Positions 97 through 23,242 of a stretch of 64,000 nucleotides of DNA are shown here, piece by piece. The DNA lies in contig NC_013757.1 in assembly GCF_000025345.1 (NCBI RefSeq), forward strand, positions 2,852,001-2,916,000. Direction: 5' to 3'. The first letter of the stretch is position 1. The number at the start of each line of letters is the position of its first letter. Origin of the DNA: Geodermatophilus obscurus DSM 43160. Lineage in GTDB: Bacteria > Actinomycetota > Actinomycetes > Mycobacteriales > Geodermatophilaceae. Under the pieces are notes generated by a model. The model did not search any database, was not told the origin of the DNA, and worked only from the letters and a program-made list of their open reading frames with translations. The position numbers and the translations under genes are program-made.

Positions 97-160
97 ACGG
101 CCCCGTCCAGGGCCCCACCCTGAGCCTGCGAAGGGTGGGGAGGACGGGGTCCTTCCTCAG
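97..160. terminator. Stop-codon-anchored GC hairpin, copy 1 (bidirectional terminator candidate)
   Basis: The arm GGCCCCGTCC (99-108) pairs with GGACGGGGTCC (142-152), and an inner stem CCCCACCC/GGGTGGGG lies between them. The minus-strand neighbour's TGA (157-159) forms the end of the element. It lies between two converging genes. Related copies occur at 10911-10972, 19551-19613 and 23191-23242. Confidence 0.7.
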
Positions 161-432
161 GCGCGGAAGAGGTCGCGGCGAGCCTGGCGGACGAGGACGT
201 CGGCGGCCTCGCTGTCGGCAACCCCGTGGCCGGCGATCAGGGCGGCGAGGTCGTCCCGGGCGCTGGCGGTGGCGTAGTCGGCGAGCTCGCGCTCGAGGGC
301 GCGGCGGGCGTGGCGCTCGGCCCGGCGACGGCGCAGCGAGTCCACCCACCCCAGGTCGGGCGTGGTGGCGGCGATGGCGAAGGCGGTGCCCTGCATGACG
401 ATCTCCTCGGGTGTCGGTCGGTGTCCCGACAT
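157..432 (-). CDS. Small hypothetical protein, charged, 91 aa
   Basis: The 91-residue product starts MSGHRPTPEEIVMQGTAFA and is rich in Ala, Arg and Glu, with a likely helical middle (SLRRRRAERHARRALERELADYA). No signal peptide, membrane segment or known motif is visible. Its stop codon is part of the recurring hairpin, as for three larger neighbours, which supports it being a translated gene. It has no recognisable relation to the inositol genes. A small hairpin (GGACAC-N5-GTGTCC, 468-484) lies upstream. The function is not known. Confidence 0.55.
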   Translation of the reverse strand: MSGHRPTPEEIVMQGTAFAIAATTPDLGWVDSLRRRRAERHARRALERELADYATASARDDLAALIAGHGVADSEAADVLVRQARRDLFRA

Positions 433-580
433 CCATGGTCGTCCTGACGCCTTGGCATATCTCGCCCGGACACTGTGAGTGTCCCCACCGCGAGTGAGCA
501 GATGTGGCCGACGCCACCGGCTGTCGGCGCTGCGCGGTGAGGCAGGTCATGCCGAAGCCCCGACGCGCGGCCCGGGTGGG

Positions 581-1309
581 TCAGCGACCGACGAGCGTCG
601 TCTCGAAGTCGTAGCGGGACGCGCGGTAGACGTGCCGGCCCAGCTCCACGGCCACGCCCTGGTCGTCGAACGCGGTCCGCTGCATCGTCAGGAGGGCCGA
701 GCGCGGCGGCTCCTCCAGCAGCCGGGCCTCGTCCGTGCGGGCCTGCCGCGCGCCGATCCGCTGGTGGGCGACCCGCAGGTGCACCCCCTGAGACCGCAGG
801 TACTGGTACAGCCCGCGATCGGTGAGGTCCTGGACCGTCGGCTCGAACCGGCCCGGGAGGTGGTTGGTCAGCAGCGCCAGTGGCTCCCCGTGGGAGCGCC
901 GCAGCCGGCGCACGACGACGATCTCGTCCCCCTCCGGCAGGTCGAGCTCCTCGGCGATGTCGGCCGGCGCCGGTACCCGCTCGAGCGACAGGACCTCGGT
1001 CGTGGGTGCCTCGCCGCCCCGCGCGAGGTCGTCGTAGAGGCTGGTGAGCTCGACCGACCGGCGCACGTGCGGCTGGATCACCTGGGTGCCGACCCCGCGC
1101 TTACGGACCAGCAGCCCCTTGTCGACCAGCTCCTGCACCGCCCGGCGCACCGTCGGCCGCGACAGCCCGTAGCGCTGGGCCAGCAGGATCTCGTTCTCCA
1201 GGCGGGATCCGGCCGGCAGGTCGCCACCGGCGATCGCCCCCTCGATCGCCTGGGCCAGCTGGAAGTACAGCGGCGTGGGGCTGGAGCGGTCGATGTCGAA
1301 CGTCAGCAC
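581..1309 (-). CDS. GntR-family (HutC/UTRA) transcriptional regulator, likely of the iol operon
   Basis: The product is 242 aa, the normal length for GntR-UTRA regulators. Residues about 10-75 form the winged helix-turn-helix (LAQRYGLSRPTVRRAVQEL), and residues about 95-235 form a UTRA effector domain. The start at 1309 (MLTFDIDRSSPTPLYFQL) matches the usual N-terminus of the subgroup. It is divergent from iolC across a 223-bp promoter region, which implies it controls the inositol operon and perhaps itself. The effector could be an inositol breakdown intermediate, as for other Iol regulators, but the sequence does not show this. It belongs to a different family from the DeoR-type IolR of Bacillus. 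Confidence 0.85.
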   Translation of the reverse strand: MLTFDIDRSSPTPLYFQLAQAIEGAIAGGDLPAGSRLENEILLAQRYGLSRPTVRRAVQELVDKGLLVRKRGVGTQVIQPHVRRSVELTSLYDDLARGGEAPTTEVLSLERVPAPADIAEELDLPEGDEIVVVRRLRRSHGEPLALLTNHLPGRFEPTVQDLTDRGLYQYLRSQGVHLRVAHQRIGARQARTDEARLLEEPPRSALLTMQRTAFDDQGVAVELGRHVYRASRYDFETTLVGR

Positions 1310-1532
1310 AGGACCTCCTCGGCTGCGGGCACCGCGCGGGCTCGACCGGGAACTCGGCCCCGCCGGTACATGATCGCACCTCAGGACGTCCTGTCGTCAT
1401 CATCTCTCCGGGGCAACTGACCACCGGACGTCTTGTTGCCTTTATGTCCTAACAAAGTCTTGACACGTCCGTGTGGCCCGGAGCACAGTCCCAGGGGCAG
1501 GCGGACGTCGACGGGCGAGGGGACGGAGCACC
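1310..1532. promoter_or_regulatory. Divergent regulator/iol operon promoter region with candidate GntR operator
   Basis: The gap between the GntR gene and iolC holds TATGTCCTAACAAA (1443-1456), directly followed by a TTGACA -35-like hexamer (1460-1465). No clear -10 is visible. A short palindrome AGGACGTCCT (1381-1390) lies nearer the regulator. The ATGTCC-N2-ACA core recurs upstream of the tautomerase (20056-20070) and the ABC-importer lipoprotein (37616-37629), which suggests one regulator acts on all three. Confidence 0.55.
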
Positions 1533-2495
1533 GTGACAGACAGCTTCGAGGTGGTCGTGATGGGCCGCAGTGGGGTGGACGTCTACCCGCTGCAGGTCGG
1601 GGTCGGCCTGGAGGACGTCGAGACGTTCGGCAAGTTCCTCGGTGGCAGTGCGGCGAACGTGGCGGTCGCCGCGGCCCGGCTCGGCCACGCCACCGCCCTG
1701 GTGACCGGGGTCGGCGACGACCCGTTCGGCCGGTTCGTCCAGCGCGCGCTGGGCGACCTCGGTGTCGACGACCGGCTCGTGGTGGTCGATCCGGCCCATC
1801 CCACGCCGGTCACCTTCTGCGAGATCTTCCCGCCGGACGACTTCCCGCTGTACTTCTACCGCCGCCCGAAGGCCCCGGACCTGCAGCTGCGGCCGGAGGA
1901 CCTGGACCTGGCCGCGATCCGGGACGCGGAGCTGTTCTGGGCGACGGTCACCGGCCTGTCCGAGGAGCCCAGCCGGTCGGCGCACCACGCGGCCTGGGAG
2001 GCCCGGGGACGGCGCCGGCACACCGTGCTCGACCTGGACTACCGGCCGACGTTTTGGACGTCGCACGAGGAGGCCACGGCGCAGGTGCGCGCGGTCCTCC
2101 CCCACGTGACCGTCGCCGTCGGCAACCGCGAGGAGTGCGAGGTCGCCGTCGGCGAGACCGAGCCGGACCGGGCGGCCGACGCCCTGCTCGACGCCGGGGT
2201 CGAGCTGGCGATCGTGAAGCAGGGCCCGCGCGGCGTCCTCGGCAAGACCCGCAGCGAGCGGGTCGTCGTCCCGCCCACACCGGTCGAGGTGGTCAACGGG
2301 CTCGGGGCCGGTGACGCGTTCGGTGGCTCGCTGGTCCACGGTCTGCTCACCGGGCTCCCCCTCGAGCAGATGCTGCGCAACGCCAACGCCGCCGGCGCCA
2401 TCGTCGCCTCCCGGCTGGAGTGCTCCACCGCGATGCCCACCTCCGCCGAGATCGAGCAGCACGTCACCGCGTCCCTGGAGGGCACCCGTGTCTGA
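1533..2495 (+). CDS. iolC: 5-dehydro-2-deoxygluconokinase (PfkB family)
   Basis: IolC phosphorylates 5-dehydro-2-deoxy-D-gluconate, the fifth step of myo-inositol breakdown. The GTG at 1533 was chosen because a GGACGGAG ribosome-binding site lies just upstream. The 320-aa product has the PfkB/ribokinase layout: N-terminal substrate motif FLGGSAANVAVAAARLG near residue 40, and the C-terminal signature VNGLGAGDAFGGSLVHG with the catalytic Asp near residue 260. It is the first gene of the operon and overlaps the next gene by 8 bases. A decayed homologue lies at 17510-18063. Confidence 0.92.
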   Translation: MTDSFEVVVMGRSGVDVYPLQVGVGLEDVETFGKFLGGSAANVAVAAARLGHATALVTGVGDDPFGRFVQRALGDLGVDDRLVVVDPAHPTPVTFCEIFPPDDFPLYFYRRPKAPDLQLRPEDLDLAAIRDAELFWATVTGLSEEPSRSAHHAAWEARGRRRHTVLDLDYRPTFWTSHEEATAQVRAVLPHVTVAVGNREECEVAVGETEPDRAADALLDAGVELAIVKQGPRGVLGKTRSERVVVPPTPVEVVNGLGAGDAFGGSLVHGLLTGLPLEQMLRNANAAGAIVASRLECSTAMPTSAEIEQHVTASLEGTRV

Positions 2496-3426
2496 CACCG
2501 TCCTGTCCCCCACCGAGGCCCCCGCACCCGACACCCACGGGTCCCGGCCGGTGTGCACCACCTACGCCGAGGTCACCGAGGTCCGCAGCCGGGACCCGCA
2601 GGCCATCCGCCGGGCGCTGGCCGCACGCCGCCGGCGGCCGGCCTTCCTCCCCGAGGACGGCCGGCTCATGCTCGTGGCCGCCGACCACCCGGCCCGCGGC
2701 GCGCTGTCGGCCCAGGGGCGTCCGGCGGCGATGAACAGCCGCACCGACATGCTCGACCGTTTGCGGACGGCGCTGGCCCGCCCCGGCGTGGACGGCCTCC
2801 TGGCCACCGCCGACATCGCCGAGGACCTGCTGCTGCTCGGCGCGCTCGAGGACAAGGTCGTGGTCGCCTCCATGAACCGCGGCGGCCTGGCCGGGGCCAG
2901 CTTCGAGCTCGACGACCGGATGACCGGCTACGACGTCGCTGGCGTGGTGGAGGCCCGCTTCGACGCGGCGAAGATGCTCAACCGGATCGACCTCGACGAC
3001 CCCGGCACGGTGCAGATGCTGGAGACCTCCGGCCGGGCGGTCACCGAGCTGGCCCGGGCCGGCGTGGTGGCGATGCTGGAGCCGTTCCTGTCCCGGCGGG
3101 TCGACGGCCGGGTCACCAACGACCTCAGCCCCGACGCGGTCATCAAGTCGGTGCACATCACCCAGGGGCTCGGGGCCACCTCGGCCTACACCTGGATGAA
3201 GCTCCCGGTCGTCGCCGAGATGGAGCGGGTCATGGACGCCACCACCCTGCCCACGCTGCTCCTCGGCGGGGACCCCTCCCGCCGACCCGAGGAGACCTAC
3301 GCCGCCTGGCGCGACGCCCTCGCGCTGCCGTCCGTGCGCGGCCTGGTCGTCGGCCGCACGCTGCTCTACCCGCTGGACGACGACGTCGCCTCCGCGGTCG
3401 ACACTGCCGTCTCCCTCGTGCACTGA
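2488..3426 (+). CDS. Cgl0159-type (beta/alpha)8 aldolase-like protein of the inositol pathway
   Basis: This 312-aa protein has the look of the Cgl0159 family, a TIM-barrel protein that follows iolC in actinobacterial inositol clusters. It probably replaces the class II aldolase IolJ that cleaves 2-deoxy-5-keto-gluconate-6-phosphate; this role is inferred from context. Visible conserved segments include LMLVAADHPARGAL, a hydrophobic GLLATADIAEDLLLLGALEDK stretch and IKSVHITQGLGATSAYTWMKLP with candidate active-site lysines. The GTG start lies inside the end of iolC, giving an 8-base overlap and likely translational coupling. In some bacteria the domain is fused to IolC. Confidence 0.8.
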   Translation: MSDTVLSPTEAPAPDTHGSRPVCTTYAEVTEVRSRDPQAIRRALAARRRRPAFLPEDGRLMLVAADHPARGALSAQGRPAAMNSRTDMLDRLRTALARPGVDGLLATADIAEDLLLLGALEDKVVVASMNRGGLAGASFELDDRMTGYDVAGVVEARFDAAKMLNRIDLDDPGTVQMLETSGRAVTELARAGVVAMLEPFLSRRVDGRVTNDLSPDAVIKSVHITQGLGATSAYTWMKLPVVAEMERVMDATTLPTLLLGGDPSRRPEETYAAWRDALALPSVRGLVVGRTLLYPLDDDVASAVDTAVSLVH

Positions 3427-3437
3427 AGGGTCCTTCG

Positions 3438-4349
3438 ATGACCGCGACCACCGCGTCGCAGCACCTGCCTGCCGGCAGCGCAGCCTCCGGCCCGTACGCC
3501 CTCGAGGTGACCCCTGAGTCCGCCGGCTGGGGACACTCCAGCCTGCGGGTGCTGGAGCTGCCCCCTGGCGGCTCGCACACCCTGGACACCGGCGCGGACG
3601 AGGTCCTCGTCGTCCCGCTCTCGGGTGGGCTGGTCGTCGAGTGCGACGGCGAGGTGCTCACCCTCGCCGGGCGCAGCGGCGTGTTCGCCGGGCCGACCGA
3701 CTTCGCCTACCTGCCGCTCGGCGTCACCGCCGAGCTCGCCAGCCGCAACGGCGGGCGGTTCGCGCTGTGCGGCGCGCGGGCCTCCCGTCGCCTGCCGGTG
3801 CGCTACGGCCCAGCGTCGGACGTCCCCGTCGAGCTGCGGGGCGCCGGCCGGTGCAGCCGGCAGGTGAACAACTTCGCCACTGCCGGCGTGTTCGAGGCCG
3901 ACGCGGTCATCGCCTGCGAGGTCCTCACGCCCGGCGGCAACTGGTCCTCCTATCCCCCGCACAAGCACGACGAGGCCTCCGAGGTGGAGAGCGAGCTCGA
4001 GGAGATCTACTACTTCGAGGTCGCCCCGGGCCCGCAGGGGCAGCCCGGCCTGGCCTACCAGCGGGTCTACGGAACCGCCGAGCGGCCGATCGACGTGCTC
4101 GCCGAGGTCCGCGACCGCGACGTCGTGCTCATCCCGCACGGCTGGCACGGGCCGTCCATCGCCGCTCCGGGCCACGACCTCTACTACCTCAACGTCATGG
4201 CCGGTCCCGGCGACGAGCGCGCCTGGCGGATCGTCGACGACCCCGCGCACACCTGGATCCGTGGCACCTGGGCCGACGAGGACGTCGACCCCCGCCTCCC
4301 CCTGCACTCCCCCGCCGGCACCGACCAGAACGGAGCCCCCCGACCGTGA
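3438..4349 (+). CDS. iolB: 5-deoxy-glucuronate isomerase
   Basis: IolB converts 5-deoxy-D-glucuronate to 5-dehydro-2-deoxy-D-gluconate, feeding IolC. The 303-aa product is a bicupin. The second cupin carries the metal site in SSYPPHKHDEASEVESELEE (His-x-His and a distal Glu, residues about 172-190) and a distal His in VLIPHGWHGP. The ATG at 3438 follows the previous stop by 11 bases. The gene ends in a GTGA overlap with iolD, so the two are probably translated together. Confidence 0.93.
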   Translation: MTATTASQHLPAGSAASGPYALEVTPESAGWGHSSLRVLELPPGGSHTLDTGADEVLVVPLSGGLVVECDGEVLTLAGRSGVFAGPTDFAYLPLGVTAELASRNGGRFALCGARASRRLPVRYGPASDVPVELRGAGRCSRQVNNFATAGVFEADAVIACEVLTPGGNWSSYPPHKHDEASEVESELEEIYYFEVAPGPQGQPGLAYQRVYGTAERPIDVLAEVRDRDVVLIPHGWHGPSIAAPGHDLYYLNVMAGPGDERAWRIVDDPAHTWIRGTWADEDVDPRLPLHSPAGTDQNGAPRP

Positions 4350-6295
4350 GCGACTACCCGCCGCCGGCACGGACCGACACCGTGCGGCTCACCGTGTCCC
4401 AGGCCGTCGTGCGCTTCCTCGCGCAGCAGCACACCGAGCGCGACGGGCAGCGCCAGCGGCTGTTCGCCGGCTGCTTCGGCATCTTCGGGCACGGCAACGT
4501 CGCCGGGCTCGGCCAGGCGCTGCTGCAGGCCGAGATCGACGAGCCCGGCGCGCTGCCCTACGTGCTGGGCCGCAACGAGCAGGCCGTCGTGCACACCGCC
4601 GTCGCCTATGCCCGGGCCAAGGACCGCCTGCAGACCTGGGCGGTCTCCACCAGCGTCGGCCCCGGCTCGACGAACACGCTGACCGGCGCGGCGCTGGCGA
4701 CCATCAACCGGCTGCCGGTGCTGCTGCTGCCCGCCGACACCTTCGCCACCCGCTCGGCCGGCCCGCTGCTGCAGGAGCTGGAGCAGCCCCACAGCGGCGA
4801 CGTGACCGTCAACGACGCGTTCCGCCCGGTGTCGCGCTACTTCGACCGCATCTGGCGGCCCGAGCAGCTGCCCGGCGCGCTGCTCGGCGCGATGCGGGTG
4901 CTCACCGACCCGGCCGAGACCGGCGCGGTCACCCTCTGCTTCCCGCAGGACGTGCAGGCCGAGGCGTTCGACTGGCCGGTCGAGCTGTTCGCCGAGCGCA
5001 CCTGGCACGTGGGCCGGCCGCTGCCCGAGCCGGCCGCCCTGCAGCGCGCGGTCGAGGTGATCCGGTCGGCCCGCCGGCCGCTGGTCGTCGCCGGCGGCGG
5101 CGTCATCTACTCGCAGGCCACCGAGGCGCTGGACGCCTTCGTGTCGGCCACCGGCATCCCGGTCGGGCAGACCCAGGCCGGCAAGGGCGCGCTGCCCTAC
5201 GACCACCCGCAGTCGGTGGGGGCGATCGGCTCCACCGGGACGACGGCGGCCAACGCCCTGGCTCGCGAGGCCGACGTCGTCATCGGGATCGGCACCCGCT
5301 ACCAGGACTTCACCACCGCGTCGCACACCGCGTTCAACGACCCCGGCGTGCGGTTCGTCAACGTCAACGTCGCCTCGATGGACGCCGTCAAGCACGCCGG
5401 GGTGGGCGTGCAGGCCGACGCCCGCGAGACGCTCACCGCGCTGACCGACGCCCTGGCCGGCTGGTCGGTCGACGACGCCCACCGGCAGCGCACCGCCGAG
5501 CTCGCCGCGCAGTGGGAGGCCACCGTCGAGGCCGCCTACCACCCGGAGGTGCCCAGCGCGGGCGAGGGCGGCCGGCTCACCCAGAACGAGGTCATCGGCA
5601 TCGTCAACGAGGTCTCCGCCCCGCGGGACGTCGTCGTCTGCGCCGCGGGCTCGATGCCCGGTGACCTGCACAAGATGTGGCGGGTCCGCGACCGCAAGGG
5701 CTACCACGTCGAGTACGGCTACTCGACCATGGGGTACGAGATCCCCGGCGGCATCGGCATCCGGATGGCCAGCCCCGACCGGGACGTCTTCGTGATGATC
5801 GGCGACGGGTCCTACCTGATGATGCCGACCGAGCTGGTCACCGCCGTCCAGGAGGGCGTCAAGATCGTCGTCGTCCTGGTGCAGAACCACGGCTTCGCCT
5901 CGATCGGCGCGCTGTCGGAGCAGCTGGGGTCGCAGCGGTTCGGCACCCGCTACCGCTACCGCTCGGAGTCCGGCCGGCTCGACGGCGACGTGCTGCCGGT
6001 GGACCTCGCCGCCAACGCCGCGAGCCTCGGCGTCGACGTCCTGGTCGCGCAGGACGGGCCGAGCTTCGAGGCGGCGCTGCGCAAGGCCAAGGCCAGCGAC
6101 CGGACGACGGTCGTGCACGTCGAGACCGACCCGCTGATCGACGCCCCCTCCAGCGAGTCCTGGTGGGACGTGCCGGTCAGCGAGGTCTCCACGCTGTCCA
6201 GCACCCAGGAGGCCCGCGCGGTCTACGACCGCTGGAAGGCCGTGCAGCGGCCCGCCTACCTCGCGCCGTCCGAGCGCGACACCCCGCAGTCCTGA
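4346..6295 (+). CDS. iolD: 3D-(3,5/4)-trihydroxycyclohexane-1,2-dione hydrolase (ThDP enzyme)
   Basis: IolD opens the inositol ring of the diketo intermediate. The 649-aa product has the three-domain thiamine-diphosphate layout. The N-terminal domain has the conserved Glu in VLGRNEQAVVHTAVAYAR. The central domain has RRPLVVAGGGVIYSQA. The C-terminal domain has the ThDP/Mg motif starting at MIGDGSYLMMPTELVTA (about residue 485) and closing with QNHGF. The GTG start overlaps the iolB stop by 4 bases. Its length agrees with the family (about 640 aa). Confidence 0.94.
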   Translation: MSDYPPPARTDTVRLTVSQAVVRFLAQQHTERDGQRQRLFAGCFGIFGHGNVAGLGQALLQAEIDEPGALPYVLGRNEQAVVHTAVAYARAKDRLQTWAVSTSVGPGSTNTLTGAALATINRLPVLLLPADTFATRSAGPLLQELEQPHSGDVTVNDAFRPVSRYFDRIWRPEQLPGALLGAMRVLTDPAETGAVTLCFPQDVQAEAFDWPVELFAERTWHVGRPLPEPAALQRAVEVIRSARRPLVVAGGGVIYSQATEALDAFVSATGIPVGQTQAGKGALPYDHPQSVGAIGSTGTTAANALAREADVVIGIGTRYQDFTTASHTAFNDPGVRFVNVNVASMDAVKHAGVGVQADARETLTALTDALAGWSVDDAHRQRTAELAAQWEATVEAAYHPEVPSAGEGGRLTQNEVIGIVNEVSAPRDVVVCAAGSMPGDLHKMWRVRDRKGYHVEYGYSTMGYEIPGGIGIRMASPDRDVFVMIGDGSYLMMPTELVTAVQEGVKIVVVLVQNHGFASIGALSEQLGSQRFGTRYRYRSESGRLDGDVLPVDLAANAASLGVDVLVAQDGPSFEAALRKAKASDRTTVVHVETDPLIDAPSSESWWDVPVSEVSTLSSTQEARAVYDRWKAVQRPAYLAPSERDTPQS

Positions 6296-8404: not shown

Positions 8405-9357
8405 GGATCGCCCTGGACCCGCAGATGCTGCGCACCGTCCCCCTGCTGGAGCTGCCCGACGTGGTGGCCGGCATGGGCTACGAGTGGATCGAGCTGTCCC
8501 CCCGCGAGGACTTCATCCCGTTCTTCAAGCACCCGCGGGTGGACACCGCCACGGTGCGGGCGTTCCGGTCGAGGCTGTCCGATGCGGGCGTCGGCGTCAC
8601 CTCGCTGCTGCCGGTCATGCGCTGGTCGGGCCCGGGTGAGGTGGAGCGGCAGGCCGCCGTCCGCTACTGGAGGCGGGCCATCGAGATTTGCGTCGAGCTC
8701 GGCGTGGACACCATGAACTCGGAGTTCAACGGCCGGCCCGAGGCGCCCGAGCTCGCCGAGGCGATGTTCTGGCGGTCGATGGAGGAGCTGCTGCCGGTCT
8801 TCGAGCGCGAGGGCGTCAAGCTGGCCCTCGAGCCGCACCCGGACGACTTCATCGAGCTCGGCCTCCCGGCACTCGACATGATCCGCGGCATCGACTCGCC
8901 GTGCGTGTCCTTCCTGTACTGCATGCCGCACACGTTCCACCAGGGCGACGACGCGCCGGGGATCATCGCGAACGCCGGCGAGCTGCTCACCCACGTGCAC
9001 GTGGCCGACTCGATGGACCACCGGGCCTCGGACGGGCTGCGCTACATCACCAACCCGCCGGGCAACACCACCCGCGTCCACCAGCACATGGAGCTCGGGC
9101 GCGGCGACGTGGACGCCGACGAGGCCTTCGCGGCGCTGGCGGGGATCGGCTTCGACGGCGTCCTCACCACCTGCGTCTTCGGCTGGGACAACCAGGCCCG
9201 CGAGTCCGGCATCCGCATGCTCGACGCGATCCGCCGGCTGGTCGGCAAGCACTTCCCCGCGGGGACGCTCCCGGACGCCGACGCGGCCGGGCCCGACGCC
9301 GGCACCTCCCGGCCGAACTTCCCGCAGACCCCGCTCCCTGACGACACCGCTCCCTGA
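8401..9357 (+). CDS. iolH: IolH-like sugar phosphate isomerase/epimerase (TIM barrel)
   Basis: This 318-aa xylose-isomerase-like TIM barrel follows iolG with an ATGA overlap, the usual place of iolH. Metal-ligand candidates are seen in [27 protein letters not shown] and [12 protein letters not shown]. The exact reaction of IolH is unsettled, and inosose isomerisation is one proposal. The last codons lie in a 16-bp tandem repeat (9331-9393) that also contains the stop codon, so the C-terminal tail ([11 protein letters not shown]) depends on repeat number and phase. Confidence 0.85.
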
Positions 9358-9393
9358 CGACACCGCTCCCTGACGACACCGCTCCCTGACGGC
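9331..9393. repeat. 16-bp tandem repeat, about 3.8 copies, spanning the iolH stop
   Basis: The unit CCGCTCCCTGACGACA occurs at 9331-9346, 9347-9362 and 9363-9378, and a partial unit follows from 9379. Each unit contains a TGA. As 16 is not a multiple of three, successive units are read in different phases, and the iolH stop (9355-9357) lies in the second unit. The rest fills the iolH-iolA gap. Confidence 0.9.
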
Positions 9394-9419: not shown

Positions 9420-10913
9420 ATGCCCACGCACATCCCGCACTGGATCGAGGGCGCCCGCCGCGAGGGCGCCAGTGGCCGCACCGGAGAGGTGACCGACTCG
9501 GCGACCGGCGAGGTCATCGGCGAGGTCCCGCTCGCCTCGACCGAGGAGGTCGACGCGGCGGTGGCCGCCGCCTCGGCGGCCTTCCCGGGCTGGCGCGACA
9601 CCTCGCTGGCCAAGCGCACCGCGGTGCTCTTCCGCTTCCGCGAGCTGCTCAACGCCCGCAAGCCCGAGCTGGCGGCGATCATCACCGCCGAGCACGGGAA
9701 GGTCCTCGACGACGCCCTGGGCGAGGTCTCCCGCGGCCAGGAGGTCGTGGAGTACGCCTGCGGCGTGCCCTCGCTGGTCCGCGGCGGCTTCACCGAGAAC
9801 GCCTCGACCAACGTCGACGTGCACTCGGTGCGCCAGCCGCTGGGACCGGTCGCGATCATCAGCCCGTTCAACTTCCCGGCGATGGTGCCGATGTGGTTCT
9901 TCCCCATCGCGATCGCCACCGGCAACACCGTCGTCCTCAAGCCCAGCGAGCAGGACCCGTCGGCGTCGCTGTGGATCGCCGAGCTGTGGAAGGAGGCCGG
10001 GTTGCCCGCCGGCGTGTTCAACGTCGTCCACGGCGACAAGGTCGCCGTCGACCGGCTCCTCGAGCACCCCGACATCCAGTCGGTGTCCTTCGTCGGGTCC
10101 ACCGCGATCGCCCAGTACGTCTACGAGACCGGCACCCGGCACGGCAAGCGGGTGCAGGCCCTGGGCGGGGCGAAGAACCACATGGTCGTGCTGCCCGACG
10201 CCGACCTGGACCTCGCCGCTGACGCGGCGGTGAACTCCGGGTTCGGCTCGGCCGGTGAGCGGTGCATGGCGATCAGTGCCGTGATCGCCGTCGGCGGGGT
10301 GGGCGACGACCTGGTCGCCCGGATCGCCGAGCGCACCCACACCCTGCGCACCGGCGACGGCCGCAAGGGCTGCGACATGGGCCCGCTGATCAGCAAGCGG
10401 CACCGGGACCGGGTCGAGTCCTACGTGGAGGCCGGCGAGAAGGAGGGCGCCAAGCTCGTCGTCGACGGCCGCCAGGTGCAGCCCGAAGGCGGCGAGGACG
10501 GGTTCTGGCTCGGCCCGACCCTGGTCGACCACGTCGAGCCGGCGATGAGCGTCTACACCGACGAGATCTTCGGCCCCGTGCTGTCGGTGCTGCGGGTGGA
10601 CACCTACGAGCACGCCGTCGAGCTGATCAACAGCAACGAGTACGGCAACGGCACCGCGATCTTCACCAACGACGGCGGCGCCGCCCGGCGCTTCCAGCAC
10701 GAGGTGCAGGTCGGGATGATCGGCATCAACGTGCCGATCCCGGTGCCGATGGCCTACTACTCCTTCGGCGGGTGGAAGAACAGCCTCTTCGGTGACACCC
10801 ACGCGCACGGCGCCGAGGGCGTGCACTTCTTCACCCGCGGCAAGGTCATCACCAGCCGCTGGCTGGACCCCAGCCACGGCGGCCTGAACCTGGGCTTCCC
10901 GCAGAACGCCTGA
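9420..10913 (+). CDS. iolA: Methylmalonate-semialdehyde dehydrogenase (CoA-acylating)
   Basis: IolA (MmsA) converts malonate semialdehyde from the inositol pathway to acetyl-CoA, and methylmalonate semialdehyde to propionyl-CoA. The 497-aa aldehyde-dehydrogenase fold shows the cofactor region PLGPVAIISPFNFPAMVPMW, the motif ALGGAKNHMVV and the catalytic cysteine in SAGERCMAISAVI (about residue 282), as in MMSDH proteins. The ATG at 9420 follows an AGAGAGGCAG site. It closes the operon, and its TGA starts a GC-rich terminator-like hairpin. Confidence 0.94.
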   Translation: MPTHIPHWIEGARREGASGRTGEVTDSATGEVIGEVPLASTEEVDAAVAAASAAFPGWRDTSLAKRTAVLFRFRELLNARKPELAAIITAEHGKVLDDALGEVSRGQEVVEYACGVPSLVRGGFTENASTNVDVHSVRQPLGPVAIISPFNFPAMVPMWFFPIAIATGNTVVLKPSEQDPSASLWIAELWKEAGLPAGVFNVVHGDKVAVDRLLEHPDIQSVSFVGSTAIAQYVYETGTRHGKRVQALGGAKNHMVVLPDADLDLAADAAVNSGFGSAGERCMAISAVIAVGGVGDDLVARIAERTHTLRTGDGRKGCDMGPLISKRHRDRVESYVEAGEKEGAKLVVDGRQVQPEGGEDGFWLGPTLVDHVEPAMSVYTDEIFGPVLSVLRVDTYEHAVELINSNEYGNGTAIFTNDGGAARRFQHEVQVGMIGINVPIPVPMAYYSFGGWKNSLFGDTHAHGAEGVHFFTRGKVITSRWLDPSHGGLNLGFPQNA

Positions 10914-10972
10914 AGAAGGACCCCGTCCCCCTCACCGCTCGCGGGCTCGCGGCGAGCCTCTGGACGGGGCCA
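10911..10972. terminator. Stop-codon-anchored GC hairpin, copy 2 (end of iol operon)
   Basis: The iolA TGA (10911-10913) is followed by AGAAGGACCCCGTCC and, after a CGCTCGCGGG/CTCGCGGCGAGC interior, by GGACGGGGCC. Its reverse complement is almost identical to copy 3 at 19551-19613, including the interior. It probably ends the iol transcript. Confidence 0.75.
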
Positions 10973-10973: not shown

Positions 10974-11290
10974 GTGACCGGCCGGCGCCGGCGAGACCCG
11001 TCTCCGCCGGCGCCGGCTGCCCTGCTCCGGGCGAGCGAGTCGGCTGCTGTCGCGAGCGGGAGGGTCTCCCTCATTCCCGACCAGGGCACGTCCGCCCATC
11101 TGGACGCATCGCACGCCTCGGTCGCCCCTCATCCGAGGCCCGTTCCCAGTGGCTCGAACGGAGAGCCGGGAGCGGCAGTGATGGCCTGACAACCACACGG
11201 CCCGAGCCCTGCTCACAAGCGAGAAGCCGGGCGCACCACCCGATCCTCGAGCAGTGCAGGAAGCCCGAGGCACCCTGGGCCAGACTCGCG
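10974..11290. other. Non-coding stretch after the iol operon
   Basis: I see no gene here. Short open frames on both strands have no start context and no recognisable domain. It begins the scarred segment that runs to about 12900. Confidence 0.5.
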
Positions 11291-17426: not shown

Positions 17427-17509
17427 GGCTATCTGAGGTCCCGGGCGCGGAACGACAGCGGGGGTCGGGTCGCCTTCCATGAGCGCGGGACCTAGGCGAG
17501 GAGAGGACC

Positions 17510-18063
17510 ATGGTGGAGGCCGTAGGCGTCCTGGCCCTGGCGCGCTGTGGGGTCGACACTCGTCCCCAGCGGATCGGCGCGGGGCTGTAGGACGTCGTGA
17601 CGTTCGACACGTTCCTCGGCGGCAGCCGCGGCCAACGTGGCGGTCGCCGCGGCCCGGGTGGGGCATTCAGCGGCCCTGATCAGCGGAGTCGGTGAGGATC
17701 GTTCGGCCGGTTCGTGCGGCGGGCCCTCGACGAGCTGGGCCTCGACGACCGCTACGTCGTCGTCGATCCCGAGCATCTGACACCGGTGACGTTCTGCGAG
17801 ATCTTCCCGCACGACGACTTCCCGCTGTACTTCCACCGCCGGCCCGAGGCACCAGACCTCCAGGTCCGTCCGGAAGCCTGGACCGGAACCCGGTGTACAA
17901 GGCGCGGCTGTTCCGGGCGACGGTCACCGGACCATCGGAGCAGCCGAGCCGGTCGGCGCACCGCGCGGCATGGGATGCCCGCGGCCGGCGGGTGCACACC
18001 GTGCTCGTTCTGGACTTCCGGCCGATGTTCTGGTCCTCGTGGCAAGAAGCCGACCGCGCGCAC
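17510..18063 (+). pseudogene. Decayed iolC paralogue
   Basis: The sequence aligns end to end with the first two-thirds of iolC (1533-2495). Matched parts are ALARCGVDTRPQRIGAGL, TFDTFLGGS, GRFVRRALDELGLDDRYVVVDP, TPVTFCEIFPHDDFPLYF and SRSAHRAAWDARGRRVHTVL. A TAG (17587-17589) replaces the GAG of iolC. One-base indels follow after FLGGS, before GRFVRRAL and in the region near 17880-17930. The 3' third with the ATP-site GAGDA motif is missing. The remaining 146 bp up to the next gene show nothing. Confidence 0.88.
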
Positions 18064-18209: not shown

Positions 18210-19493
18210 GTGACCGCATGGCGACGGTGGGTCAGGGGCCACGCCGCCGCGCTGCTGCTCCTGGTGCAGGGACGGGGCCGCTCGGCCGCCTTCCGCGCGG
18301 CCCGCATGACGGGGGCGACCGTCGCCGCCTTCCTCGTGGCCCAGGCGGTGGGGCTGCACACCCCGCCGCCCCTGATCGCCGCGCTCACCGCCCTGCTGGT
18401 GGTGCAGGCGACCCTCAGCAGCACCCTCCTCAACGGCCTCCAGCGGGTGCTGAGCGTCGTGTCCGGAGTGGCCCTGGCGGTGCTGTTCGCCGCCGTCGTC
18501 GGGCTCACCTGGTGGAGCCTCGGGGCGCTGGTCGCCGCGTCGATCCTGGCCGGTCAGCTGCTCCGGCTGGGGCCGCACCTGGTGGAGGTCCCGATCAGCG
18601 CCATGCTCGTGCTGGGCGCGTCGGGCGCGGAGGACGTCGGCGCCGGCCGCGTCGTCGAGACGCTCATCGGGGCGGCCGTCGGCGTGCTGGTCAACGTGGT
18701 CTTCCCGCCGGCGGTGCAGACCCGGTACGCGACGCAGGCGCTGGAGCGGTTCGCCGACGAGATCGCCTGCCTCCTGCACGACGCGGCGTCGGCCCTGCGC
18801 GCCGGTCGCGTGACCCCCGAGCAGTCGACGCGCTGGCTGGAGGACGCCCGTCGGCTCAACCGGCACGCGCCGCGGGTCGACCGCGCGCTGGCCCACGCCG
18901 AGGAGAGCCGCCGGCTCAACGTCCGGGCGCTGCGGGTCCCGCCGGTCGGCGGGGGGACGCGGGCGGGCCTGGACGCCCTGGAGCACGCCTCGGTGTCGCT
19001 GCGCACCCTGTTCCGGGCCATCGACGACGCCACCCGGGAGCAGACCGGCGTCCGGGAGGACGCCGGGTACGCCGACATCGTCCGGCGCACCGTCGCGAGC
19101 CTCCTCGAACGCATGGGCACCGTGGTCCGCGAGTTCGGTCGGGTGATCATCGCCGAGGCCCGGGACGCCGAGGGCGTCGAGTGGAACCGGCTGGCCGGGG
19201 CGCTCGAGGCGCTCCGCAGTGGCCGGACGCTGATGCAGGACCTGCTGATCGGCGACCCGCGCAGCCACTCCGGCCTCTGGGAGGTCAACTCGACCCTGCT
19301 GGCGACCATCGACCGGATGCTGGACGAGTTCGGCGCGGTCGACGGTGCGCCGGCGCAGCGACCTGCCCCCGGCTCCTCCCGGGCCCGGCGGGCCGCCGTG
19401 ACGGCGGGACAGCGGTTGCGCATCACCCGCCAGGCGCCGACCGCACACGGCAACGGGCCCCTCTCCGGGCGCCCGCCCGGGGAGGACGCCTGA
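18210..19493 (+). CDS. FUSC-family (aromatic acid exporter-like) membrane protein
   Basis: The 427-aa product has about five or six closely spaced membrane segments in the first 185 residues (TVAAFLVAQAVGL, PLIAALTALLVVQATLSS, VLSVVSGVALAVLFAAVVGL, ALVAASILAGQLLRL, TLIGAAVGVLVNVVFPP). A long, charged helical cytoplasmic part follows, the pattern of FUSC/ArAE proteins. The GTG at 18210 follows GCGAGGA. The substrate is unknown; relatives export aromatic carboxylic acids. It stands alone and ends at hairpin copy 3, converging on the tautomerase. Confidence 0.8.
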   Translation: MTAWRRWVRGHAAALLLLVQGRGRSAAFRAARMTGATVAAFLVAQAVGLHTPPPLIAALTALLVVQATLSSTLLNGLQRVLSVVSGVALAVLFAAVVGLTWWSLGALVAASILAGQLLRLGPHLVEVPISAMLVLGASGAEDVGAGRVVETLIGAAVGVLVNVVFPPAVQTRYATQALERFADEIACLLHDAASALRAGRVTPEQSTRWLEDARRLNRHAPRVDRALAHAEESRRLNVRALRVPPVGGGTRAGLDALEHASVSLRTLFRAIDDATREQTGVREDAGYADIVRRTVASLLERMGTVVREFGRVIIAEARDAEGVEWNRLAGALEALRSGRTLMQDLLIGDPRSHSGLWEVNSTLLATIDRMLDEFGAVDGAPAQRPAPGSSRARRAAVTAGQRLRITRQAPTAHGNGPLSGRPPGEDA

Positions 19494-19550
19494 CGTCGGC
19501 CGTGCGGACATGTGTTCCCCCCGGGGACGGAACGGCGGTGACGGAGGAGG

Positions 19551-19613
19551 GCGGCCCCGTCCAGAGACTCGCCGCGAGCCCGCGAGCGGTGCGGAGGACG
19601 GGGTCCTTCCTCA
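19551..19613. terminator. Stop-codon-anchored GC hairpin, copy 3
   Basis: GGCCCCGTCC (19553-19562) pairs with GGACGGGGTCC (19596-19606), followed by TTCCTCA, whose TCA is the minus-strand tautomerase stop. The interior GCCGCGAGCCCGCGAGCGGT is shared with copy 2 in reverse orientation. It lies between converging genes. Confidence 0.75.
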
Positions 19614-20003
19614 GAGGTCGCCCTCGAGGAACTGGGCGCGCCCCAGGCCGAAGGACCAGTCCTCACGGGTGTTCGAGGCGACGGAGACGACGAGGTCGCT
19701 GGGCGACAGGCCGGCGGCCTCCTCGAGCCGCTGCGCCAGGCCGGCGTAGAGGGCCCGCTTCTGTTCCTCCGAGCGCCCCTGCTGGAAGACCTGCAGGACC
19801 ACGAGGTCGTCGGTGCGCTCGATGCCCAGCCCCGTGTCCTCGCAGATGATCTGACCGGGACGGTGCTCGGTGATCACCTGGTACCGGTCCCGCGGCGGCG
19901 CGGCGAAGACGTCGAGCACGACCTCCTGGACGGCGTCTGCCAGGCGGCGCAGCTCCTCGGGGGTACGCCGTCCCTCGATGACGTCGATGCGGACGAGCGG
20001 CAT
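19611..20003 (-). CDS. Tautomerase-superfamily protein
   Basis: The 130-aa product begins MPLVRIDVIEGRRT, so the catalytic Pro becomes the N-terminal residue after Met removal, as in the 4-oxalocrotonate tautomerase/MIF superfamily. A start 24 bases further upstream exists but would bury that proline, so 20003 is preferred. The length is about twice that of a short tautomerase and agrees with the 130-aa class containing ITEHRPGQII. The promoter carries the same ATGTCC-type palindrome as the iol operon, so it may act on a keto/enol intermediate of inositol breakdown; this is inference. Confidence 0.8.
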   Translation of the reverse strand: MPLVRIDVIEGRRTPEELRRLADAVQEVVLDVFAAPPRDRYQVITEHRPGQIICEDTGLGIERTDDLVVLQVFQQGRSEEQKRALYAGLAQRLEEAAGLSPSDLVVSVASNTREDWSFGLGRAQFLEGDL

Positions 20004-20055
20004 GGCGGACCCCTCCAGTGGCGACACGGCACCGACGTGGCGTCGGCCACATCAC

Positions 20056-20070
20056 TATGTCAGGACATTA
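20056..20070 (-). promoter_or_regulatory. Candidate GntR (iol) operator upstream of the tautomerase
   Basis: TATGTCAGGACATTA is a near-perfect palindrome located 53 bp upstream of the tautomerase start. Read on the minus strand it is TAATGTCCTGACATA, which resembles TATGTCCTAACAAA before iolC. The rest of 20071-20272 shows no gene. Confidence 0.5.
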
Positions 20071-20272
20071 AGACGTAGTGAAGGGGTGACGGGGATCTCG
20101 CGGGCCCACCGAGAGCCGGTCGCCGGGGACCGACGACCGGTGGACACGCGGCCGGACCCCCGCGCCTCGCCCACGCGGACGGGGGCCTGCTCCTCTCGAT
20201 CAGGTCGTGGCGACCACCGAGACCGCGGTCCCCGCGGCGTGGTCGTCGCGGGGTGCGGTGCCCACGTGGCGA

Positions 20273-21049
20273 TCAGGAGTAGGCGGCGCGGAAGCTCTCG
20301 AGGGCCTGCACCGGGTCGCCGGAGGCCCAGCCCTCCAACGCGACGACGCCGGGGTAACCGAGCCGGTCGAGGGTGGCGGCGATCGCCGGGTGGGAGATCT
20401 CCCCCGTGCCCGGCTCGCACCGGCCCGGGACGTCGGCGACCTGGATCTCCCCCACCAGCGGCAGCGCCCGCTCCACGAGCTGGACGAGGTTCCCCTCACC
20501 GATCTGCGCGTGGTAGAGGTCGAGGTTGAGCCGCAGGTGCGGGTTGCCGACCGCCTCCACCAGCGCGATCGTGTCGGCGGCACGGGCGAACGGCGTGCCC
20601 GGGTGGTCGACGGCGGTGTTGAGGTTCTCCAGGGTGAAGACCCGCCCGGCCCGCTCGCCCAGCGCGGCCAGCCGCTCCAGCGTGCGCGCGGCGGTCAGCC
20701 ACATCGCCGGGGTCACGACCTCGGTGGGCACCACCGGCAGCCCCCGGCCGTCCAGCCCGGTCCCGTGCACGTTCAGCCGCGGGCAGTCCAGCCGCTCGGC
20801 GACGGCCAGGGACTGCTCGGCGGTGCGCAGCAGCTCCTCGGCGCCGGCGGGGTCCGCCAGGGTGCCGGTCACGTACCCGGTCATGGAGGAGAAGGTCGCG
20901 CCGGTCCTCGTCAGCTCGTCGACGTCCTTGGTCGTCCAGTCCCAGATCTCCACCTCGAACCCGAGGCCGTCGATGCGCCGCACGCGCTCGGCGAACGGCA
21001 GGTCGAGGAAGAGCATCTCGGCCGAGGCGGCCAGCCGGTACGACGTCAC
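20273..21049 (-). CDS. Hydroxypyruvate-isomerase-like TIM-barrel protein
   Basis: The 258-aa product resembles Hyi and related AP-endonuclease-2-type sugar isomerases. Visible motifs are RLAASAEMLFLDLPFAERV, a Glu metal ligand in FTLENLN, LRLNLDLYHAQIGEGNL, IQVADVPGRCEPGTGEI and a Glu ligand in VALEGWASGD. The GTG start overlaps the stop of the upstream dehydrogenase (GTGA), so the pair forms one operon under the LacI regulator at 22168. Substrate could be hydroxypyruvate or a keto-sugar made by the dehydrogenase. A decayed relative lies at 12245-12445. Confidence 0.82.
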   Translation of the reverse strand: MTSYRLAASAEMLFLDLPFAERVRRIDGLGFEVEIWDWTTKDVDELTRTGATFSSMTGYVTGTLADPAGAEELLRTAEQSLAVAERLDCPRLNVHGTGLDGRGLPVVPTEVVTPAMWLTAARTLERLAALGERAGRVFTLENLNTAVDHPGTPFARAADTIALVEAVGNPHLRLNLDLYHAQIGEGNLVQLVERALPLVGEIQVADVPGRCEPGTGEISHPAIAATLDRLGYPGVVALEGWASGDPVQALESFRAAYS

Positions 21050-22056
21050 TTCTCGACCCGGGCGGGACGGCCGGTGCGCACCGACTCCGCCGCCGCGAGC
21101 GCGATCGCCAGCGCCGCGCGGGCGTCCTCTCCGGTCACGGGGGCGGGCTGCCCGGCGCGGACGGCGTCGACGAACGCGGCCAGCTCGGCGGTGTACGCGT
21201 CGGGGAAGAGCTCCTGGTCGCCCCGGACGGTCTCGACGAGCCGGCCGGCCGGCCCGGAGAAGGCCATCCCGCTGCGCCGGCCGTCGCCCATCGTCGCCAT
21301 GCCGCCGGAGCCGAGCACCTCCCCGCGGACGTCGTAGCCGTAGGCGGCCTCGAAGCACGCCTCGGCCACCGCCATGGCCCCGTTGTCGAACCGCACGGTG
21401 ACGACCGCCGTGTCGAGCAGCCCGCGGTCCCGCCACGCCGGCTCCACGAGCGCGTCCGCGGCGGCGGAGACCTCCACGGCCTCGGCGCCGGGGTTCAGGA
21501 AGCGCAGCGTGTCGAAGTCGTGGATCAGCGTCTCGAGGAAGATCGTGTCCGGCAGGACCCGGGCGGGGTCGAAACCCCCGGGGTCGCGGGTGAGCGACCG
21601 CAGCAGGCGCGGGGTCCCCAGGGTGCCGGCGTCCAGCAGCGCCCGGGCCGCGCGCCAGTCGGCGGCGAACCGCCGGTTGAACCCGACCTGCAGGACCACA
21701 CCCGCACTGCGGGCGGCGTCGATGGCGCGGTCGGCGTCCGGCAGCGTGACGGCCATCGGCTTCTCGCATAACGCGTGCCGACCCGCCGCCGCGGCGGCCA
21801 CCACCAGGTCGGCGTGCGACCGGGCCGGCGCGGCGATGACGACCGCGTCGACGTCGGGGTCGGCCCACAGCTGCGCCACGTCGGTGTACGCCCGGCCGGC
21901 ACCGAGCGCGCTGGTCAGCCGCTCGGCGGCACCCGGTGCGGGGTCGGCCACGGCGGCCAGTCGCGCGTGCGGGAGCCGCAGGGCGAGCGTCTCCGCGTGG
22001 AAGGCCCCCATCCGGCCCGACCCGATCAGGGCCACGCCCACGGTCTCGCTCGCCAT
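21046..22056 (-). CDS. Gfo/Idh/MocA dehydrogenase (inositol 2-dehydrogenase-like)
   Basis: The 336-aa product has the Rossmann motif ALIGSGRMGAFHAETLA at the N-terminus, the EKP motif in HALCEKPMAV near residue 97, QVGFNRRFAADW and the catalytic region TLIHDFDTLRFL near residue 170. This matches IolG/MocA-type NAD-dependent polyol or inositol dehydrogenases. It is coupled to the Hyi-like isomerase and divergent from a LacI repressor with two palindromic operators. It is probably induced by its own sugar and not part of the main iol operon. Confidence 0.87.
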   Translation of the reverse strand: MASETVGVALIGSGRMGAFHAETLALRLPHARLAAVADPAPGAAERLTSALGAGRAYTDVAQLWADPDVDAVVIAAPARSHADLVVAAAAAGRHALCEKPMAVTLPDADRAIDAARSAGVVLQVGFNRRFAADWRAARALLDAGTLGTPRLLRSLTRDPGGFDPARVLPDTIFLETLIHDFDTLRFLNPGAEAVEVSAAADALVEPAWRDRGLLDTAVVTVRFDNGAMAVAEACFEAAYGYDVRGEVLGSGGMATMGDGRRSGMAFSGPAGRLVETVRGDQELFPDAYTAELAAFVDAVRAGQPAPVTGEDARAALAIALAAAESVRTGRPARVEK

Positions 22057-22069
22057 GTCGACTCCTCGT

Positions 22070-22083
22070 CTAGAACGTTCTAG
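22070..22083. promoter_or_regulatory. LacI operator 1, CTAGAACGTTCTAG
   Basis: A perfect 14-bp palindrome with a central CG, as LacI operators usually have. It lies 14 bp upstream of the dehydrogenase start at 22056. An identical copy lies at 22132-22145. Confidence 0.8.
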
Positions 22084-22131
22084 GGCACAGTCAGCGTGAC
22101 GGCCGACCCCTCCCTCGTCAAGTGCATCCGG

Positions 22132-22145
22132 CTAGAACGTTCTAG
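22132..22145. promoter_or_regulatory. LacI operator 2, CTAGAACGTTCTAG
   Basis: Identical to operator 1, with centres 62 bp apart (about six helical turns), so a looped tetramer or two dimers on one face are possible. It lies 22 bp before the LacI GTG at 22168, suggesting autoregulation. Confidence 0.8.
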
Positions 22146-22167
22146 GACATCGGGCTACGCTCGCCCG

Positions 22168-23169
22168 GTGCCCCCGACGAGCCCCGACAGGCGGCCGACC
22201 CTGGCCGACGTCGCGGCCCGCGCCGGGGTCTCCACGGCGCTCGTCTCGATCGTCATGCGGGACGCCCCCGGCGCCAGCGCCGCGACCCGCGAGCGGGTGC
22301 GCCGCGCCGCCGACGAGCTCGGCTACCGCCCCGACACCCGCGCCCGCCTGCTGCGCAGCTCCCGCAGCCGGCTGCTCGGCGTCGTCTTCGGGGTCCAGCA
22401 CGCCTTCCACGGCGACCTGCTGGCCGGGCTCTACGACACCGCCGAGAAGGCCGGGTACGAGCTGGCACTGAGCGCCGTCACACCGGGACGCAGCGAGCAG
22501 CGAGCGGTCGACAGCCTGCTGCGGGACCGCTGCGAGGCACTGGTGCTGCTCGGGCCCTCGTCGCCCACCGCGCACCTGACCGACCTCGCCACCCGCCTCC
22601 CCGTGGTGGTCGTCGCCCGCTCCGTGCGGTCCGCCGCGGTCGACGTCGTCCGGACCGCCGACGACGAGGGCATGCACCTGGCGGTGGACCACCTGGTGGC
22701 GCTCGGGCACCGCGACGTCGTACACGTCGACGGCGGCCGGGCGCCCGGGGCGGCCGAGCGACGGCGGGGCTACCGGGGGGCGGTGCGCAGGCACGGGCTC
22801 GAGCCGCGGGTCGTGCCCGGTGGGCCCACCGAGGAGGAGGGCGCCGCCGCGGCGCGCGCCCTCCTGGCCGGCCCCCTGCCCGGTGCGGTCACGGTCTTCA
22901 ACGACCGGTGTGCCGTGGGCCTGCTGGACGTGCTGCGGCGTGCGGGCCGCTCGGTGCCCGGTGAGGTGAGCGTGGCCGGCTACGACGACAGCCGTCTCGC
23001 GCGGCTCTCCTCGGTCGACCTCACGTCCGTCGCCCAGGACGTCGAGCGGCTGACCACGCTGGCCGTCCGGCGCGCCCTCGACCGGCTGGACGGGGTCCCC
23101 GTCCAGCAGCGCGAGCTCGTGGTCCCGCCCCGGCTCGTCGTCCGGAGCACCACCGCCCCGCCTCCGTGA
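22168..23169 (+). CDS. LacI-family transcriptional regulator
   Basis: The 333-aa product has the headpiece PTLADVAARAGVSTALVSIVMRDAPGAS at residues about 10-37 and a full effector domain (LLGVVFGVQHAFHGDLLAGL, HLVALGHRDVVHVDGG, VSVAGYDDSRLARLSSVDLT). The recognition helix reads STALVSIVMR instead of the common TVSRVLN. The GTG at 22168 was chosen since upstream starts would overlap the operator. It is divergent from the dehydrogenase/isomerase pair. It resembles the LacI protein at 25611 (same ending, PPRLVVR-TTAPPP), so the two are likely paralogues. Confidence 0.9.
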   Translation: MPPTSPDRRPTLADVAARAGVSTALVSIVMRDAPGASAATRERVRRAADELGYRPDTRARLLRSSRSRLLGVVFGVQHAFHGDLLAGLYDTAEKAGYELALSAVTPGRSEQRAVDSLLRDRCEALVLLGPSSPTAHLTDLATRLPVVVVARSVRSAAVDVVRTADDEGMHLAVDHLVALGHRDVVHVDGGRAPGAAERRRGYRGAVRRHGLEPRVVPGGPTEEEGAAAARALLAGPLPGAVTVFNDRCAVGLLDVLRRAGRSVPGEVSVAGYDDSRLARLSSVDLTSVAQDVERLTTLAVRRALDRLDGVPVQQRELVVPPRLVVRSTTAPPP

Positions 23170-23190
23170 CGGTCTGGAACGGCCCCGGGT

Positions 23191-23242
23191 CAGGGCCCCG
23201 TCCCGAGCTTGCGAGGGATGGAGGACGCGGGGTCCTTCCTCA
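23191..23242. terminator. Stop-codon-anchored GC hairpin, copy 4 (shortened)
   Basis: GGGCCCCGTCC (23193-23203) faces GGACGCGGGGTCC (23222-23234) followed by TTCCTCA, whose TCA is the minus-strand P450 stop. The interior is shorter than in the other copies. It lies between the converging LacI and P450 genes. Confidence 0.7.

Follow-up and report, generated by a model that had tools for sequence, protein, structure and literature searches.

The YPAL (RU-2) repeats of Yersinia reportedly insert closely behind stop codons. They are mobile palindromic repeats whose sites are filled in some relatives and empty in others, with targets beside dyad symmetry (PMC2229807), and in behaviour they are among the nearest published relatives (PMC2229807, PMC2759123) of the element treated here. 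This element is a hairpin that recurs directly behind stop codons in a 64-kb stretch of DNA, hereafter the window, which spans positions 2,852,001–2,916,000 of the closed 5,322,497-bp chromosome of Geodermatophilus obscurus (genome G000). Judged from the sequences, and with a probability of roughly 0.7, it is a non-autonomous palindromic mobile element of the Geodermatophilaceae, 57 nucleotides (nt) long, placed at stop codons and in the loops of its own copies. YPAL differs from it, as far as descriptions alone can be compared, by a length of 168 bp, target duplications of 3–26 bp and another host (PMC2229807).

Other described systems also resemble this element in part. Repetitive extragenic palindromic (REP) sequences tagged with GTAG or CGTC, which go with REP-associated tyrosine transposases (RAYT), are likewise short, dispersed palindromes of high copy number, and their end can supply a stop codon (PMC3733652). 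However, the Geodermatophilaceae element lacks a GTAG or CGTC tag, no Y1 transposase was found in the family, and its 57 nt hold a nearly invariant loop; it also nests into loops and keeps a fixed distance and orientation at stop codons. REPs of Escherichia coli located no more than 15 nt from a stop codon place a hairpin near enough to affect the terminating ribosome, but only 446 of 4072 lie that close (PMC12306157), whereas 46 of 96 copies stand within 8 nt here, most of the others being nested or unassigned. The SPRITE repeats of Streptococcus pneumoniae are terminator-like short repeats enriched at gene 3' ends; unlike the present element, they are AT-rich and carry a U-rich tract, and a fixed stop-codon junction is not reported for them in the passages of PMC3049150. 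I-shaped (U-lacking) terminators also consist of a GC hairpin without a U-tract behind genes, but they form a structural class and not a repeated mobile sequence (PMC8269248). The repeat itself is not described in the openly licensed literature searched, which is weak evidence of its being unpublished; the passages of the G. obscurus genome paper (PMC3035280) contain no occurrence of "palindromic" or "terminator", and none of six repeat-related terms occurs in PMC5742155.

The original prediction had placed four copies of the hairpin between positions 97 and 23,242 of the window, each beginning at the stop codon of a gene. Searching with a covariance model (cmsearch) returned exactly four matches in the window, with E values from 7e-17 to 2e-13, although these match partly by construction, as the model was built from 30 simple copies that include them. 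All four predicted hairpins were thereby confirmed, the fourth starting at 23181 and not at 23191, and in every case the TGA of a called gene stands one nucleotide before the GAAGG foot of the element, in agreement with the predicted position. The features are listed below, where the gene names iolA, tautomerase and P450 fusion are taken from the prediction as labels only and G063 is the closest genome found.

99–155, minus strand: element copy 1 (cmsearch 82.9 bits, E = 7e-17)
157–159, minus strand: TGA stop of the small open reading frame 157–396 (minus strand, gene call), 1 nt before the foot of copy 1 (+1)
10911–10913, plus strand: TGA stop of the gene 9420–10913 (plus strand, iolA), 1 nt before the foot of copy 2
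10915–10971, plus strand: element copy 2 (cmsearch 81.2 bits), between the iolA stop and the older hairpin
10982–11016, plus strand: older GC hairpin CCGGCGCCGG..CCGGCGCCGG behind iolA, recognised in the sequence and also present in relatives
19553–19609, minus strand: element copy 3 (cmsearch 78.6 bits), common to G063
19611–19613, minus strand: TGA stop of the gene 19611–20027 (minus strand, tautomerase), 1 nt before the foot of copy 3
23181–23238, minus strand: element copy 4, diverged, 58 nt (cmsearch 67.9 bits)
23240–23242, minus strand: TGA stop of the gene 23240–25564 (minus strand, P450 fusion), 1 nt before the foot of copy 4

Copy 1 differs from its ortholog in G063 at 5 positions, among them positions 20 and 39, which both change (A-T to G-C) and form the pair left open in the family model. 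Copy 2 is absent from G063, whose iolA gene is 99% identical, and copy 4, with the sequence GGACCCCGCGTCC .. GGGGCC, is not found at the orthologous stop in G063, the stop itself being the same there. The kinship proposed for copies 2 and 3 is real, as they are 94% alike over 62 nt; their supposed opposite orientation is not, since the two lie on opposite strands but share the same orientation relative to the element. Within the window alone, a short-motif count gives a weak signal (6 matches at up to 2 mismatches, a number reached by 3 of 100 shuffles). When single copies were folded as RNA and compared with their own shuffles, only some folded better (z of -2.3, -0.6, -1.7 and -0.4 for copies 1–4), and Rfam returned no match at gathering score in the window.

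The element is a 57-nt imperfect palindrome, GAAGGACCCC..TCGCnnGCTC..GGGGCC, in which the copied unit, as delimited by sequence comparison, spans GAAGGACC to GGCC and is laid out as GAA-GG-A(bulge)-CCCCGTCC-..-inner stem-TCGCnnGCTC-inner stem-..-GGACGGGG-CC. When folded, it can form an outer stem of 10 bp that carries a bulged A, followed by an inner stem and the 10-nt loop TCGCnnGCTC. In an alignment of 30 copies, hardly any variation is seen in foot and loop, whereas the stems differ by paired changes. Pair cells are paired in 90.9% of cases, double-changed cells number 43 against 12.7 in shuffles, and the covariation score of 0.254 (0.089 in shuffles) was reached by none of 500 shuffles; these pairing counts support the fold but are no unbiased test, because the aligned copies had been chosen by foot, loop and right end. 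A loose search for arm pairs that ignored the loop gave 101 matches, against 67 in the reversed control.

Two side observations concern the same family. A sister subfamily, whose stem is GGACCACCCTTCC..GAAGGGTGG and whose foot and loop resemble those of the main family, occurs at L057:9605-9661, L064:10446-10503, L038:9398, L045:1050 and other places in the sampled stretches, and several of its copies also begin at stop codons. The pentamer GTTCC stands directly to the right of the element in 8 of 96 copies (for instance at 23171–23180 of the window), possibly as part of a longer version of the element or as a preferred right flank.

The element is abundant throughout the genome. Allowing one mismatch at most, the motif GAAGGACCCCGTC is found at 276 places and its reversed control at 18, so that the genome-wide excess anticipated by the original prediction is present. 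In a sample of 40 evenly spaced stretches of 20 kb (800 kb) plus the window, 864 kb in all, the model finds 96 matches, 92 of them in the even 800 kb; this extrapolates to about 610 intact copies per 5.32-Mb genome, where cmsearch counts miss outer copies broken by a nested copy. The contiguous 400-kb block around the window is poorer, with 19 matches in G000 (L204–L223) and 17 in the matching block of G063. The spread over the sampled stretches (L031–L070) is uneven, with no copies near 0.4–0.5, 2.4–2.7 and 2.9–3.1 Mb and with the densest region, of up to 6 copies per 20 kb, near 4.26–4.39 Mb. Since short GC-rich palindromes would be common in a genome of 74% GC, the likeness of the copies might be ascribed to chance or to convergence among GC-rich terminators. 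Against this stand the 276 matches over 18 in the control, exact 57-nt twins, the nearly invariant loop and the presence/absence polymorphism described below, and the explanation is rejected as having practically no probability left; the repeat is indeed more than convergent terminator design, as had been argued.

Beyond G. obscurus, the element was found in all 26 Geodermatophilus genomes searched, with from at least 24 to at least 159 matches each, scoring being capped at 150 candidates. Within the Geodermatophilaceae it is present in 67 of 76 genomes and in 9 of 12 genera. With at most about 74 candidates scored per genome, 52 genomes have at least 66 matches (rich), 14 have 2–65 (intermediate) and 10 have none or one (poor). 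A sample of 121 genomes of the order yielded 17 with a match, 15 of them Geodermatophilaceae; the remaining two, which belong to two other families, hold 2 matches and 1 match.

Spread by copying, which the original prediction had offered as one possibility, is supported by exact twins at distant places, by presence or absence between close relatives, and by nesting. For 21 of the 30 best-scoring copies (a set picked by score), another site in the genome carries the identical 57 nt. One such sequence is present at five positions, every one of them within a different outer copy, and the identity stops at GAAGG on one side and at GGCC on the other.

Genome G063 is collinear with G000 over about 197 kb at 94.3% identity. 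Of the 36 copies in the two compared blocks, 19 could be evaluated and represent 15 gene-stop sites: nine are polymorphic and six are filled in both genomes, two of the latter with visibly different subfamilies. Empty and filled states, a mark of mobility in miniature inverted-repeat transposable elements (MITEs), are found at 9 of the 15 comparable gene-stop sites. Of the nine polymorphic sites, six have the same stop codon in both genomes, one has TGA in one genome and TAG in the other at the same position, and at two the gene with the element is shorter, by 1 or 4 codons. Judged by these sequences, the stop codon usually predates the element (6 of 9). The notion that the element as a rule brings its own stop codon was rejected, a stop shifted upstream being apparent only in a minority of the polymorphic sites (2 of 9). 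The stop TAA is over-represented among genes that carry the element (3 of 46, against 4 of 750 others). In such cases as L063:13796-13854 and L063:14419-14477, TAA is apparently formed by a T joined to the foot AAGGACC. The cleanest empty site, B113287, allows a target duplication of at most 1 nt by visual inspection of right flanks that have diverged.

In the comparison with G063, outgroups help to tell gain from loss only at iolA and at the tautomerase gene. At 19 of 21 orthologous iolA loci the gene ends in TGA at the same place; G067 has TAG, and the G069 locus is cut. The relatives G063, G062, G072, G060, G046, G023 and G064 are free of the element and have a GC hairpin within about 12 nt of the stop, which is probably the original iolA terminator. 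In G000 the element is lodged between the iolA TGA and that hairpin, and in G065 a different version, a nested pair, sits between the same TGA and the older hairpin. Other element-like sequences follow the iolA TGA in G041, G070, G015 and possibly G059, and further arrangements are seen in G057 (an element-like foot first), G051, G067, G004, G030 and G058, while G071 has the hairpin twice. For the tautomerase gene, 12 of 80 loci were read. Full elements stand at the stop in G. africanus and G. siccatus, and a remnant in G. chilensis; G. saharensis, G. sabuli, two Modestobacter records and one Blastococcus record have no element at this stop, nor do the other four loci read (a metagenome-assembled genome of the Actinomycetota and three from other families). 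In each case the aligned protein is followed by the stop, which is TGA everywhere except in Blastococcus (TAG). Because both genes share their stops with element-free relatives, the stop codon is older than the insertion.

Nesting provides the second kind of site. Among 160 distinct simple copies, which include relatives and loci chosen for carrying the element, 30 same-orientation nested pairs were found by a search that required intact outer arms and a fixed range of distances, and that cannot see all nestings. In 29 of the 30 pairs the outer copy is broken 20–30 nt from its foot, at or beside the loop, and in 24 of 30 the right-hand outer piece measures 17–26 nt, so that the old loop is mostly missing. 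The pair A130722/B132670 represents the states before and after such an event: the outer copy is uninterrupted in G063, and in G000 its loop is replaced by two bases and an inner copy. Triple and inverted nesting were also seen.

Placement at gene ends was measured with a codon-usage gene caller of our own rather than a published annotator, which gave 825 genes in 864 kb (85% coding) and missed several real stops. The GAAGG foot lies at -4 to +8 nt of the stop of the upstream sense gene in 46 of 96 copies, and at exactly +1 in 28. Twenty further copies belong to composites whose foot adjoins a sense stop, and eight to opposite-orientation composites at the stop of the facing gene; the composite rule is loose (65 of 692 stops without an element within 150 nt also pass it), so a few of these 28 composite cases may be due to chance. 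Orientation at stops is one-sided: the GAAGG end faces the gene in 46 cases, against 2 in which the GGCC end lies near the stop of a facing gene, one copy being counted in both. Intergenic sequence holds 2982 unused stop triplets, compared with 796 called stops; the element is therefore linked to stops in actual use more than to the bare triplet. The rule that the element begins at a stop codon, first noticed in the window, therefore finds support in the even genome sample (46 of 96), with 20 of 96 copies left unassigned.

The same placement would be expected if the element spread without a target and copies behind stops were kept by selection, since there they end or protect transcripts and spare the protein, an alternative that we consider possible but doubtful. 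It is favoured by the avoidance of tight operon junctions: if the element is cut out, no gap in the 26 co-directional at-stop cases is shorter than 36 nt, whereas fewer than 30 nt separate the genes in 206 of 516 co-directional pairs overall; in the 20 convergent cases the remaining gap can be as short as 8 nt. In Streptomyces, GC hairpins that lack a U-tract are recognised as features of 3' ends (PMC8269248), and the orthologous copy 1 changed at two facing positions together, which also fits selection. On the other hand, a hairpin could function either way round, yet orientation is 46 to 2. Strong hairpins of other kinds follow 66 of 353 stops, compared with 22 in shuffled sequence; their starts are spread over 0–24 nt (52 of 66; 10 of 22 when shuffled) rather than fixed at one nucleotide. 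The neighbourhood of the element is also close to that of other gaps of at least 60 nt, convergent neighbours accounting for 20 of the 46 at-stop copies and for 142 of 373 such gaps, although a gap of that size is mostly taken up by the element itself. In addition, one terminator in E. coli was almost completely repressed when it stood a few bp behind a gene (PMC4824070). Targeting is favoured by the fixed orientation and the one-nucleotide spacing; that tight operon junctions are avoided is compatible with selection too.

The original prediction had also suggested a bidirectional terminator, and an intrinsic terminator of the family that acts in both directions and is conserved for that function would account for a GC-rich hairpin at gene ends and for the 20 of 46 copies that lie between convergent genes. 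Only part of this suggestion holds. On the antisense strand, 35 of the 46 at-stop copies have at least three T among the 8 nt that follow the stem, contributed by the foot TCCTTC and by the complement of the stop; on the sense strand this is so in just 2 of 46. As an intrinsic terminator, the element would thus face antisense transcription and not the adjoining gene. A two-way function is further at odds with the orientation of 46 to 2, with the position of the element before an older hairpin at iolA, and with its absence at the same gene in close relatives, and a terminator has no need of a nearly invariant loop or of nesting. We regard this explanation as improbable; with a GC hairpin already in place behind iolA and a sense U-tract in so few copies, the presence of the element is in our view best explained by mobility.

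Y1 transposases mobilise REPs. No Y1_Tnp domain (PF01797, E 0.001) was detected in the 76 family genomes, G. obscurus included, although 5 of 14 control genomes were positive, and RAYT/IS200 was accordingly rejected as the mobiliser. Reverse transcriptase genes are present in 37 of 76 genomes (25 of 52 rich, 8 of 14 intermediate and 4 of 10 poor), and IS110 in 51 of 76 (36 of 52, 6 of 14 and 9 of 10, respectively); neither follows element richness, and neither is supported as the mobiliser. The element does resemble a classical REP moved by a RAYT in being a short, high-copy palindrome beside genes with a fixed end, and GTAG REPs often give a TAG stop to flanking open reading frames (PMC3733652). 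The missing PF01797 and the lack of a GTAG or CGTC tag at either end (the ends being GAAGGACC and GGCC) make such an origin very unlikely.

Several observations weigh against a mobile element targeted to stop codons and to its own loops. Twenty of the 96 copies were assigned to no stop and 2 overlap a called gene; inspected by eye, several unassigned copies follow stops that the caller missed, but some follow a bare TAG outside genes. Among the best-scoring loci of relatives, a set picked by score, 10 of 24 are not at a stop. The two bases before the inner foot of nested pairs vary (GA in 8, TG in 5, TA in 4, TC in 3, and others; n = 30), which speaks against a simple fixed target word. Two measures of structure were unremarkable, the number of pairs changed on both sides being reached by 27 of 500 shuffles and that of further pair types by 406 of 500. 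Many copies are old, since the closest pairs in the sample are less than 95% identical (81 copies, ungapped, median 88%), and the exact twins could in part be due to gene conversion. In the comparison with G063, 17 of the 36 copies were unusable (2 for lack of synteny, 15 for lack of a scoring gene end), at two of the nine polymorphic sites (B126046 and B150102) element sequence is present in the other genome too, at a different point of that gap, and the empty iolA site of G063 differs by more than 57 nt and is no simple insertion. Besides the failure to find Y1_Tnp in the family, 7 of 52 element-rich genomes lack Y1, reverse transcriptase and IS110 alike, the three families searched. Finally, untargeted insertion followed by selection could lead to the same pattern.

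By sequence, the copies occupy two main kinds of site, one directly 3' of a stop codon with the GAAGG end toward the gene, and the other in the apical part of an existing copy. One-sided orientation, a bulged hairpin, insertion into loops and the lack of an obvious target duplication suggest single-strand transfer, and the hairpin may move as a single-stranded nucleic acid through a trans-acting enzyme other than a Y1 transposase. Its 5' foot would be joined to an exposed, often T-containing site, of which the stop codon would be one example. An insertion at this point would be tolerated because the protein stays intact.

A further-reaching proposal is that the integration target is the translation stop site together with the element's own loops, in one orientation and with no known transposase class, where the shared feature may be single-stranded exposure at the RNA level rather than a DNA motif, coupling integration to translation termination or to mRNA ends. 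This idea is speculative and rather unlikely to hold.

Effects of the element on ribosomes and on antisense transcription are possible, going by its position and composition. In the commonest arrangement about 4 nt separate the stop codon from the start of the stem, which in the mRNA would there meet the terminating ribosome; in E. coli, stalling of ribosomes has been reported for REPs that lie no more than 15 nt from a stop (PMC12306157, citing an earlier study). The opposite strand, which is terminator-like with its U-rich tail, may shield the 3' end of the gene from antisense transcription.

Other repeats were seen in passing. A second MITE-like repeat accounts for insertions of 93 and 70 bp at G000:C1:2819513 and 2838420 (L211, L212), both absent in G063, which are flanked by the duplications GGTCACAG (8 bp) and GGTCACG (7 bp) and share the end GTGACCTCGC[CG]GGCTC. 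In the window, a short tandem repeat of GACGACACCGCTCCCT at 9343–9371 differs in length by 29 nt between G000 and G063, and the segments 1650–2063 and 17628–18039, about 80% identical, in direct orientation and 16 kb apart, are probably a gene duplication.

In the sample of the G. obscurus genome, about 6% of the called gene ends (46 of 796) carry the element directly at the stop codon. A small element that sits at stop codons in one orientation and has no recognisable transposase would suggest a route of mobilisation not known so far. The gene pairs with and without it are natural material for studying what a hairpin just behind the stop may do to translation termination and to mRNA ends.

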